Positions 22,508-40,126 of a stretch of DNA of 40,126 bases are shown here, piece after piece. The stretch is from NCBI RefSeq assembly GCF_000333375.1, contig NZ_BACZ01000044.1:7528-47653 (forward strand). The letters run 5' to 3'. This stretch comes from Curtobacterium sp. B18. GTDB lineage: Bacteria; Actinomycetota; Actinomycetes; Actinomycetales; Microbacteriaceae. The notes under the pieces are model-generated. The model was not told the DNA's origin. It was given only the letters and a program-made list of their open reading frames with translations, and did no database searches. The number at the start of each line of letters is the position of its first letter. Position 1 is the first letter of the stretch. Both the position numbers and the translations under genes were made by a program.

Positions 22508-23236
22508 TCACACGGTGGCGTCGTACGCCTTGATGACCGTTTCCGGGTCGCCGATCTGCTTCAGCTCTCCACCCTCGAGCCATGCGACTTCGTCACACAT
22601 TGCCTTCACAGTGCTCATCGAGTGGGAGACGAGGATGACCGTGCGGCCTTCGTCCTTCATCTCCTTGAACTTGGTGCGGCACCGGTTCTGGAACGTCGAG
22701 TCGCCGACTGCCAGGACCTCGTCGACTACGAGGACATCCGGCGTCACCGCGACGGCGACCGAGAACCCGAGCCGCACGTACATGCCGGACGAGTAGTTCT
22801 TCACGGGCTGGTCGATGAAGTGGCCGACGCCGGAGAACGACACGATGTCGTCGAACTTCCGCGCGACCTCCTTGCGGCTCATGCCGAGGATGGACCCGTT
22901 CAGGAAGACGTTCTCGCGGCCGGACAGCTCGGGGTGGAAGCCGGAGCCGACCTCGAGCAGCGATGCCTGCTTGCCGCGGGCGGTGATCGCGCCCTCTTCC
23001 GGCCAGAGGATCTTCGCCAGGCACTTGAGCAGTGTGGACTTGCCTGACCCGTTCTTGCCGATCAGTCCGAAGGTGGTGCCGTGCGGCACCTCGAACGAGA
23101 CGTCCTTCAGGGCCCAGAAGTCCTCGTGCACGGACTTCTTGCCCCGCATGACCATGCTCTTCAGCGAGTCGTTGCGCTCCTTGTACATGCGGAAGCGCTT
23201 CGAGACGTGGTCGACGGTAACGGCAGCATCGGTCAC
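22508..23236 (-). CDS. Polysaccharide/teichoic acid ABC exporter, ATP-binding subunit (Wzt/TagH type)
   Basis: 242 aa with a complete nucleotide-binding domain: Walker A GKNGSGKST (60-68), Q-loop region, signature YSSGM (about 147-151), Walker B VLVVDEVLAVGD (about 165-176) and the switch His in LVSHSMST. The features RFRMYKERNDSLK near the N-terminus and SGRENVFLNG are typical of Wzt/TagH ATPases. It lacks the long C-terminal carbohydrate-binding domain of O9a-type Wzt, which places it with the short form that exports a finished lipid-linked polymer. The GTG start overlaps the permease stop by four bases (GTGA), as expected for a two-gene transporter. Confidence 0.9.
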   Translation of the reverse strand: MTDAAVTVDHVSKRFRMYKERNDSLKSMVMRGKKSVHEDFWALKDVSFEVPHGTTFGLIGKNGSGKSTLLKCLAKILWPEEGAITARGKQASLLEVGSGFHPELSGRENVFLNGSILGMSRKEVARKFDDIVSFSGVGHFIDQPVKNYSSGMYVRLGFSVAVAVTPDVLVVDEVLAVGDSTFQNRCRTKFKEMKDEGRTVILVSHSMSTVKAMCDEVAWLEGGELKQIGDPETVIKAYDATV

Positions 23237-36197: not shown

Positions 36198-37367
36198 TTA
36201 CTTCAGGAAGTCGGGGACGTCGAGCTCGTCGTCGTCGTCGTCGAACGCCGGGTCGGCGGCACGCTGCGCGGGCGCCTCGTGCTCCTGCGACGCCCACGAC
36301 GGAGCGGACGAGGACGAGTCCTCGATCGCACCGCTGGCACCGGCGGACGCCACGGGCACGGTCGCACCGGCGTCGGGGTCGACCCAGCTGGAGCGACGCT
36401 CCTTGAGCTGCGAGGTCGGCTCGCCACCGTCGAAGCCGGCGGCGATGACGGTCACGCGGACCTCGTCACCGAGGGTGTCGTCGATGACGGCACCGAAGAT
36501 GATGTTCGCCTCGGGGTGCACGGCCTCCTGCACGAGACGGGCCGCGTCGTTGATCTCGAAGATGCCGAGGTTCGAGCCGCCCTGGATCGAGAGCAGGACG
36601 CCGTGGGCACCGTCGATCGACGCTTCGAGCAGCGGGCTCGCGACGGCCAGCTCGGCGGCCTTGATCGCCCGGTCGGCGCCGCGCGAGGACCCGATGCCCA
36701 TGAGCGCCGAACCGGCACCCTGCATGACCGACTTGACGTCGGCGAAGTCGAGGTTGATCAGGCCCGGGGTGGTGATGAGGTCGGTGATGCCCTGCACGCC
36801 GGCGAGGAGCACCTGGTCGGCGGTGGCGAAGGCCTCGACCATCGAGATGCCGCGGTCGCTGATCTCGAGCAGGCGGTCGTTCGGCACGACGATGAGCGTG
36901 TCGACCTCGTCCTTGAGCCCGGCGACGCCGTTCTCGGCCTGGGACTGACGACGCTTGCCCTCGAAGCTGAACGGCTTCGTGACGACACCGATGGTGAGGG
37001 CGCCGATGGACTTGGCGATGCGGGCGACGACGGGCGCACCACCCGTGCCGGTCCCACCACCCTCACCGGCGGTCACGAACACCATGTCAGCACCGGCGAG
37101 GGCCTCTTCGATCTCCTCGGCGTGGTCCTCAGCGGCGCGACGGCCGACCTCGGGGTCCGCGCCGGCGCCGAGGCCGCGGGTGATCTCGCGGCCGACGTCG
37201 AGCTTGACGTCTGCGTCGCTGAGCAGCAGCGCCTGCGCGTCGGTGTTGATCGCGATGAACTCGACGCCACGGAGGCCGAGCTCGATCATCCGGTTGACGG
37301 CGTTGACGCCGCCGCCGCCGACACCGACGACCTTGATGACGGCGAGGTAGTTGTGGTTCGTGGTCAC
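36198..37367 (-). CDS. ftsZ: Cell division protein FtsZ
   Basis: 389 aa from the GTG at 37367 ([15 protein letters not shown]), the usual actinobacterial FtsZ start. The GTP-binding site includes [13 protein letters not shown] (15-27) and the tubulin signature GGGTGTGG (103-110), and the T7 loop is [13 protein letters not shown]. The C-terminal domain is followed by an acidic, Ser/Ala-rich linker and the terminal peptide [10 protein letters not shown], which binds SepF. FtsZ forms the division ring. A longer frame extends upstream to 37484, but the sequence there is not FtsZ-like and includes a structured leader, so it was not used. GGAGG lies 15 bases before the GTG. Confidence 0.97.
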
Positions 37368-37505
37368 GTCAGTCAGGCCTCCGGTTGAACCCTCAACCTC
37401 TACTTGAAGTTCAGGGGCAATGCTGGTAGATGTGGTGCTCGCATCGACGCTACGGGTGCCGTCCGCAGGCTGTCGCGCCGCCACGCCGCGTGTCGCGCGA
37501 TTCCG
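37368..37505 (-). promoter_or_regulatory. ftsZ leader with a GGTTGA/TCAACC dyad
   Basis: The 138-base gap between ftsQ and ftsZ has no gene. It contains a hairpin (arms 37383-37388 and 37393-37398, loop four) just upstream of the ftsZ GGAGG, embedded in the sequence AAGTAGAGGTTGAGG, which resembles conserved ftsZ leader sequences in other actinobacteria (from memory). A TAGCGT near 37455 (minus strand) is a possible -10. Confidence 0.4.
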
Positions 37506-38783
37506 CTACTTCTTCGCGCGGATGATCCCGTTGTCGGGCGCGCTCACGTCGTACTCGACCACGGTGCCGGGGTTCCGGGCCGCGTGGTCCTTCACGAGGG
37601 CCGCGAGGAGCGCCGCCTTGGCGTCGGACTGCTCGGGGTTGCCCCAGACGACACTCGAGCGGTCGCGCAGGGTGAGCGTCACGTCGTCGGCGGTCGAGCC
37701 CTTCACGCTCGTCACCTGCGACCGCACGGTCGACGGCAGCGCCAGGACGACCTCGGTCATCGTGCGGAACTCGCTCGATCCGAGCCTCGCCTTCCCGATG
37801 TCGGCGAGCGGCATGTTGGCGGGCTGCTTCGGCGAGGACTGCACGACGATGCCAGCGGGGTCGACGAGGTCGAAGGACTTCCCGGACCGCACCGCCACGA
37901 CGGGCGTGCGCTCGGTGACCGTGACGACGAGGGTGTGCGGCGGGGCCTCCTCGGTCACGTAGCTCTCGATGAGCGGGAAGCCGGCGATGTCGCGCTTGAT
38001 GGCGTCGAAGTCGAGCCGCGCCAGCGGGGTGCCGATCTGGTCGGAGAGCGCCTGGCGGACCTCGGTGGCGTCGACGCGGTTCGTGCCCTTCACCTCGATC
38101 GTCTGCAGGGCCATCAGGGGCGAGAACACCGCGACGAGGATCGAGATCCCGAACACCAGGACGATGCTCGCCGCGGTGATCCACGCGGCACGGCGGTGGC
38201 GGCTGCGGCGGGTGAAGCGACGGACCTCGGCCCGCTCGAGCAGGCGACGGCGGCGCTTGGCGATCCGGGCCTCGCGCGCGGTCTCCGCCGCGCGGACGCC
38301 GGCGCCGATCGGGCGCTCGCCCTCGCGCTGCTCGGAGCCGTGCAGGTCGGTGCCGTCCGGGTCGGAGCCGTGCAGGTCGGTGAGGTGGGCGAGCCGCTCG
38401 GCGTCCTGCCGTTCGGTCTCCCGCCGCTCGCGGGCGGTGCGCTCGGCCTCCGGGTCGTGGTGGTCCTCGTCCGGCGTGTACTCGCGCAGCCGTCCGGCGA
38501 CCGAGGACAGCCCGGCGCCGAGGCGCCGCCCCGCGGCGCCGGCGAGGGCCCCGGCACGGTCGCGCGCCGAGGCGGTCGCCGGGTCGGTGGCGGTGGGGTC
38601 GGCCGTCTCGCCGTCCGGCGCGGTCGGGGCGGGCTCGTGCCGCGCCTCCTGGACCTCCGGCTCGACCTCGCGGGACGGACGCCTCGGGGCCGTCGGGGTG
38701 CGGCGCTGCCGGGGCGCACGCGCGCCCGCAGCAGGTGCGTCCGGGCGGGCCGGACCCTCGTCGAACCCCTCTGGACGCTTCAC
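37506..38783 (-). CDS. ftsQ: Cell division protein FtsQ
   Basis: 425 aa, longer than the common ~250-300 because of an N-terminal cytoplasmic region of about 210 residues rich in Arg, Glu, Pro and Ala. One membrane segment (about 213-234, [20 protein letters not shown]) is followed by the POTRA domain ([49 protein letters not shown]). The beta domain comes next ([24 protein letters not shown]) and then the C-terminal part. It links the FtsZ ring to septal wall synthesis through FtsB and FtsL. The GTG at 38783 overlaps the murC stop (GTGA). A 30-base-period repeat at 38332-38382 encodes DLHGS twice in the cytoplasmic part. Confidence 0.9.
38332..38382 (-). repeat. Short direct repeat inside ftsQ
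   Basis: A 21-base unit at 38332-38352 recurs exactly at 38362-38382 (period 30). It duplicates the peptide TDLHGS in the disordered N-terminal tail and keeps the reading frame. Confidence 0.65.
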
Positions 38784-39949
38784 CGGGACTGCGTCCCGTC
38801 GTCGTGGAGGGCACTGAGCACCTGCGGGATGATGCGGTACACGTCGCCGCAGCTCAGCGTCATGATGATGTCGCCGTCCCGCGCGACCGCGGCGGCGCGC
38901 GCGGACGCCTCGTCCCAGTCCGGCAGGAACTCGACACGCGACTGGTCGGCGAAGCGCTCCTGGACGAGGGCGCCGGTGACGCCGGGTTCCGGGTCCTCGC
39001 GGGCGCCGTAGACGTCGAGGACGACGGTGTGGTCGGCGAGCTCCTCGTAGACCTTCGCGAAGTCGCCGGCCATCATCCGGGTCCGCGAGTACAGGTGCGG
39101 CTGGTGGATCGCGATGATGCGGCCGTCGCCGACGACGTTCCGTGCCGCCCTGAGCGCGGCCGCGACCTCGGTCGGGTGGTGGGCGTAGTCGTCGTAGACC
39201 GAGACCCCGCGCTCCACGCCGTGCAGCTCGAAGCGCCGCTGGGTGCCGCCGAAGGCCTCGATCCCGCGGATCGCGTCCGCGGCGGCGACGCCGAGTCCGG
39301 TCAGGACGGCGAACGCGCCGACGGCGTTGATCGCGTTGTGCCGCCCGGGCACGCGGAGCGTCAGGTGGTGCGATGCGCCCGCTGCGCGGAAGTCGACCTC
39401 GACGCCGGCGGACTCGGTGATGCGCTCGATCCGGACGTCGGCGTCGACGGCCTCGCCGAAGGTGACGACCTCGGGGGCGTCGGTGCGCGCGCGGATGCCG
39501 GCGGTGACGGCCTTTGCGCCGGCGTCGTCGCTCGAGATGACGACCCGCTCGGACGCCTTCGCGGCGAACTCGACGAACGCCTCGGTGAAGGCCTCCTCGC
39601 TGCCGTAGTGGTCGAGGTGGTCGGCGTCGACGTTCGTGACGAGCGCGACGGCGACGTCGTAGAGCAGGAACGAGCCGTCGGACTCGTCGGCCTCGACGAC
39701 GAACAGGTCGCTCGACCCGGGAGCGGAGCTCGTGCCGAGGGACTGGATGACCCCGCCGTTGACGAAGCTCGGGTCCAGACCCAGCTCGACCATCGCTGTG
39801 ACGATCATGCCCGTCGACGTCGTCTTGCCGTGGGCACCGGCGACCGCGACGAGGCGCTGGCCGGCGATGAGCGCGGCGAGGGCCTGCGAGCGGTGCAGGA
39901 CCGGGATGCCGCGGCGCTGGGCCTCGAGCAGCTCGGGGTCGGCTCGCAC
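38780..39949 (-). CDS. murC: UDP-N-acetylmuramate-L-alanine ligase MurC, N-terminus missing
   Basis: About 389 residues of MurC are present, from [24 protein letters not shown] to the C-terminus. These include the ATP loop [61 protein letters not shown] and GAGD-like end segments. MurC adds L-Ala to UDP-MurNAc, an essential step in peptidoglycan synthesis. The normal first ~75-80 residues (the UDP-MurNAc-binding Rossmann start with a GIGGxGM motif) are absent. Upstream of 39949 the DNA codes instead for an acyl ligase on the other strand. The Asn usually seen in RADNPEL is also missing at the break. The open frame continues to an ATG at 39988, but that extension is arginine-rich nonsense. This is probably a misjoined contig end. 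Confidence 0.85.
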
Positions 39950-40126
39950 GGGGGACCGCCGTGCCCGAGGCCCCCGGCGCCGACGCACCGGCCGCCGTGC
40001 TGTTCACGTCGGGGTCGACCGGCCCGGCCAAGGGCGTCGTGTACACGCACGGGCAGCTCGGTGCCGTCCGGGACGCGCTGGCCACCCAGTACGACATCGG
40101 CGTCGGCACCGGGCTCGTCGCCGGGT
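39950..40126 (+). CDS. AMP-forming acyl ligase (OleC/fatty-acyl-CoA synthetase type), internal fragment
   Basis: The plus-strand frame through 39961 gives about 55 residues beginning [20 protein letters not shown], then [23 protein letters not shown] is the phosphate-binding A3 motif of the ANL superfamily, and the following [14 protein letters not shown] resembles OleC-like beta-lactone synthetases or related acyl-adenylating enzymes. Both ends are missing: the window ends at 40126 and the sequence upstream switches to murC. In an intact enzyme this segment lies about 150-200 residues into the protein. It does not belong in a division and cell-wall cluster, which supports a chimeric junction. 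Confidence 0.75.

Follow-up and report, generated by a model that had tools for sequence, protein, structure and literature searches.

A sharp join between murC and a probable oleBC fragment at a Curtobacterium contig end is very probably a sequencing or assembly artefact

Results

On contig C750 of a Curtobacterium draft genome, the 3' part of murC is joined, 187 bases before the contig end, to an internal piece of a probable oleBC gene. This junction is very probably an artefact of sequencing or assembly that does not exist in the organism; we infer this cause from a sharp breakpoint close to the contig end, from gaps in the assembly at both loci, and from the separate locations of the two genes in relatives. 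The coordinates of the features are collected in Table 1.

Table 1. Features around the junction (positions in the window)
Feature	Position	Strand	Basis or remarks
ftsZ	36198..37484	-	PF00091 and PF12327; context
ftsQ, murC neighbour	37506..38783	-	PF08478 and PF03799; context
murC 3' part (UDP-N-acetylmuramate–L-alanine ligase)	38780..39939	-	TIGR01082, 342.9 bits; about 87 N-terminal codons missing
Chimeric junction (breakpoint)	39939..39940	.	congeners' parental sequences have at most about 2 bases in common there
Probable oleBC internal fragment (ANL-ligase half), 187 bases	39940..40126	+	PF00501, NF006754, congener identity, in-frame translation; reaches the contig end

The Contig and Its Genome

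The genome comprises 3,710,767 bases in 793 contigs, with an estimated completeness of 93.89% and a contamination of 2.16%. The window, the whole stretch of 40,126 nucleotides analysed here, covers bases 7528–47653 of C750, which is 47,653 bases long, so that window and contig end at the same base. Judged by murC, the host is Curtobacterium: the best-matching of the 80 named loci retained from 325 all belong to this genus, with protein identities of at most 95%.

At the other side of the window, about 25.7 kb (window ~1371–27109, C750:8898–34636) are missing at the corresponding place in the congener G001. The 10 proteins scanned from this stretch belong mostly to glycosyltransferase, glycerophosphotransferase, acyltransferase or ABC-2 exporter families, and G+C drops within it at window ~15–24 kb; the stretch is probably a variable cluster for cell-surface polysaccharide or teichoic acid. 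PADLOC run on the window reported an ABC ATPase at 22508–23236, matching several ATPase models, and nothing else.

The Breakpoint and the Truncated murC

The first-pass annotation had described an abrupt junction at 39935–39965, and the breakpoint could be placed between two adjacent bases within this interval. BLAST alignments to murC break off at 39939 in each of the seven congeneric murC loci, and among seven congeneric oleBC loci homology starts at 39940 in L050 and L054, at 39938 in L059, and at 39962–39978 in the other four. Microhomology at the join is at most about 2 bases as judged on the congeners' sequences.

The same annotation had claimed that murC lost its N-terminal start, and the profile searches agree. 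The product matches TIGR01082 at profile positions 73–448 of 449, with a score still over the cut-off of 335.1 bits, and PF01225 at positions 66–94 of 95 only, with 16.9 bits against a cut-off of 21. Measured against the whole TIGR01082 equivalog, including the N-terminal PF01225 domain, the gene is a truncated copy. On the intact gene of G006 (start at L058:3786, homology from L058:4048), the missing 5' stretch measures 262 bases, or about 87 codons, and takes in the N-terminal domain's glycine-rich loop. The open reading frame that a gene caller would report here runs over 38780–39988 with a GTG start and encodes 402 residues; the first 16 are the antisense of the ligase piece, and matches begin at residue 17 in every locus kept (80 of the 325 found).

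Identity of the Terminal Fragment

Read from 39940 on the plus strand, the tail translates in frame into 62 residues that match PF00501 (AMP-binding) at positions 157–191 with E = 2.2e-9. The best NCBIfam match is to the fatty acid CoA ligase family NF006754 (47 bits, E = 1.1e-12), which falls well short of its whole-protein cut-off, and an olefin beta-lactone synthetase model is also among the best matches. The tail had been read as an internal piece of an opposite-strand ANL ligase, a reading that both profiles bear out. In G001 the full congeneric gene (L054) encodes 905 residues, with a PF00561 alpha/beta-hydrolase domain at 71–316 and a PF00501 AMP-binding domain at 370–748.

The parent gene is thus probably oleBC, a hydrolase/ANL-ligase fusion of olefin synthesis. 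We give this as a likely identity only, because NF006754 and NF045786, the best NCBIfam models, miss their curated cut-offs with the full congeneric gene as well; what the window holds of the hydrolase and AMP-binding fusion that defines OleBC/OleC beta-lactone synthetases is 187 bases. According to PMC7158056, the olefin operon is laid out as oleA, oleBC and oleD, and Curtobacterium makes olefins in traces.

Over the aligned parts, the tail is 82.9–88.2% identical to seven congeneric ole loci, compared with 86.6–90.3% for the adjacent murC against seven murC loci, and GC3 is 0.952 in the tail versus 0.966 in murC. By these sequence measures, the tail looks native, as a piece of the strain's own ole gene would.

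Both Genes in Related Genomes

A 227-base query spanning the junction was searched in the strain's own genome and in 38 relatives. All 23 congeners matched the ole part, at a place apart from murC, with 81–91% DNA identity over 139–189 bases, and the 40-base murC part gave a separate match in at least 19 of the 23 among the matches listed. Both matches lie on one contig in eight congeners (G001, G006, G007, G009, G011, G014, G016 and G018), 1.35–1.64 Mb apart, which is the wide separation in close relatives that an assembly chimera implies. Both loci were fetched and aligned in six of these; in G007 and G011 the place of murC comes from the 40-base match.

Among the matches listed, no strong match crosses the join in any congener. 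The short ones that pass over 39939/39940 (22–86 bases, 71–100% identity, E of 1.4e-4 or weaker among those listed) are treated as chance matches in GC-rich DNA. The exact junction sequence had no match in the contigs of the other listed genomes, a set that may omit the window's own genome or one very close to it.

Upstream, murC continues in frame into the N-terminal glycine-rich motif in 79 of the 80 loci from other genomes; in the sole exception, L225, the contig ends 102 bases upstream of the match. The tail protein was found by tblastn in the flanks (up to 2 kb) of none of the 80 murC loci, and blastn of the tail gave matches of 28–50 bases in three of them, which were treated as chance. 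In the relatives examined, murC and the ole gene are intact and far apart.

Two Gaps in the Assembly

In the strain's own assembly, a congener's ftsW–murG–murC stretch maps to C471 up to its last base (6,212) and then to C750 from the breakpoint; the sequence in between, including the murC 5' end, was not found in this assembly. The order on G001 is C472, C471 and C750. A gap of 1,419 bases, into which the end of ftsW, murG and the 5' part of murC fall, separates C471 from C750, and the final 187 bases of C750 jump to 3,090,833–3,091,019.

A protein search of the genome found murC at this locus only, and the fallback claim of the earlier annotation, a rearrangement with a second murC elsewhere, finds no footing there. 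Two other PF01225 matches lie on C472 and C471, contigs that align to the cell-wall cluster of G001. In a profile search no murG was found in the genome; all 14 named controls, none of them a congener, matched, nine over the cut-off, and a congener's murG scored 247.3 bits, just below the cut-off of 250.25. Of the intact murC and murG–ftsW neighbourhood that had been proposed as a check, the ftsW side is present on C471, and neither an intact murC nor murG was found in the assembly.

Mapped onto the strain's assembly, the ole locus of G005 falls on C435 up to its last base (9,564) and on C47, at most 522 bases from its end. Between these parts only the 187-base tail was found apart from short weak matches, of which the locus has 35, and C259 is a weaker match (72% identity) to the C47 part. 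On G001 the tail falls between C47 (to 3,086,022) and C435 (from 3,100,365). The rest of oleBC was not found in the assembly beyond short weak matches. Because the other halves of both genes were not found in the assembly, we place both loci in assembly gaps, and a contig end with unassembled gaps at both loci is the arrangement expected of an assembly chimera.

Other Contig Ends

The survey took in C750 and 20 other contigs, all at least 2 kb long, and set their 42 ends against 1.2 Mb (about one third) of G001. Six of 26 other contigs (C110, C310, C350, C390, C470 and C710) were dropped as shorter than 2 kb, and C511, covered over 20,000 of its 22,710 bases, was left out. Eight of the 20 others are non-random, having come in through ligase, murC or ole matches (C358, C458, C472, C471, C158, C716, C47 and C435).

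Some G001 match was present at 36 of the 42 ends. By our reading of the alignments, 10 other ends are collinear with G001 to within 10 bases and the end of C750 is the sole clear jump inside a gene; the other 31 were unusable, lying outside the compared third of G001 or having unaligned outer stretches. At C435.start, C47.end and C150.start, 41 to 427 bases are unaligned. Since there is one clear jump against 10 collinear ends among those that could be placed, we take the C750 end as an isolated bad join.

Three ends were followed in five congeners, and none is a clear chimera: C458.start is collinear in G017, C270.start gave weak or nearby matches, and the short multi-copy sequence of C230.start (L093:1-260) recurs at many sites in G009 and G017, in some cases on either strand, in the manner of a dispersed palindromic (REP-like) repeat. 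The last 800 bases of C190.end (L092:13791-14590) align to congeners in pieces of about 150–310 bases at three distinct places, the first break falling at the end of an open reading frame; gene-order variation is the likely reading and a chimeric end the alternative. At C230.end about 630 bases match elsewhere at 76% identity. It is possible that the assembly holds a few more chimeric ends.

Discussion

Chimeric contig ends are a type of misassembly in fragmented draft assemblies, and the misassembly at a contig end that the first-pass annotation had preferred is supported by the contig end, the distant intact loci in relatives, and the missing halves of both genes. In the course of events that we propose, C750 would have run up to an unassembled gap within murC, and 187 bases of the same genome's oleBC, from inside a second gap, would have been added to its end. 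The join may stem from a false overlap or from a chimeric read or fragment, and would have arisen in the library or the assembler rather than in the cell. In the organism, murC would most likely run on into murG and ftsW (C471), with oleBC more than 1 Mb away at its own locus between C435 and C47. Two points count against an artefact: chimeric ends are uncommon here, as the survey indicates, and a true rearrangement beside assembly gaps would equally leave the halves missing.

Such a rearrangement, an inversion or translocation that broke both murC and oleBC in a cell rescued by an unassembled second murC or another enzyme, is in our judgement very unlikely, even though the tail has the genome's own composition and reading frame and a part of the genome is absent from the assembly (93.89% complete). 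MurC is essential for peptidoglycan synthesis and its N-terminal domain is required, and no second murC was found in the genome. No reciprocal junction was seen: the murC 5' end was not found in the assembly, and the matches to the ole locus are confined to the tail, the flanks on C47, C435 and C259, and the 35 short weak ones. Relatives give the rearrangement no support either, neither through a strong match over the join among the matches listed nor through the tail protein in the flanks examined, and the join sits just beside a contig end. A rearrangement would require unassembled sequence to supply the MurC activity, and there is no sign of this.

That the tail came from another organism in the sample, for example another Curtobacterium, would accord with the estimated contamination of 2.16%, and we regard it as very improbable, with DNA of another Curtobacterium a slight possibility: the tail differs from congeneric oleBC about as much as the adjacent murC differs from its counterparts, and, the tail aside, the strain's oleBC is missing at just this place.

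An artefact of sequencing or assembly thus remains the preferred reading, and its consequences concern data quality only. C750 is best trusted up to 39939, and a murC–oleBC linkage is not to be annotated. The apparent absence of an intact murC and of murG should not be taken as biological, and claims of gene absence based on this draft need care.

Compared with the Curtobacterium ftsW–murG–murC–ftsQ–ftsZ cluster, the present locus is alike in that C472, C471 and C750 align in order on G001 on both sides of the gap, and differs in that murG and the murC 5' end are missing, in the assembly gap. With the Micrococcales oleA–oleBC–oleD operon, as set out in PMC7158056, it shares a tail that aligns in frame within the AMP-binding half of the congeners' 905-residue fusion; unlike that operon, the sequence here is limited to 187 bases detached from their own locus. 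The resemblance to chimeric contig ends of draft assemblies lies in the sharp join inside two genes, the short end tail, and the unassembled halves of both partners, whereas the tail here looks like sequence of the same genome and not of a distant contaminant.
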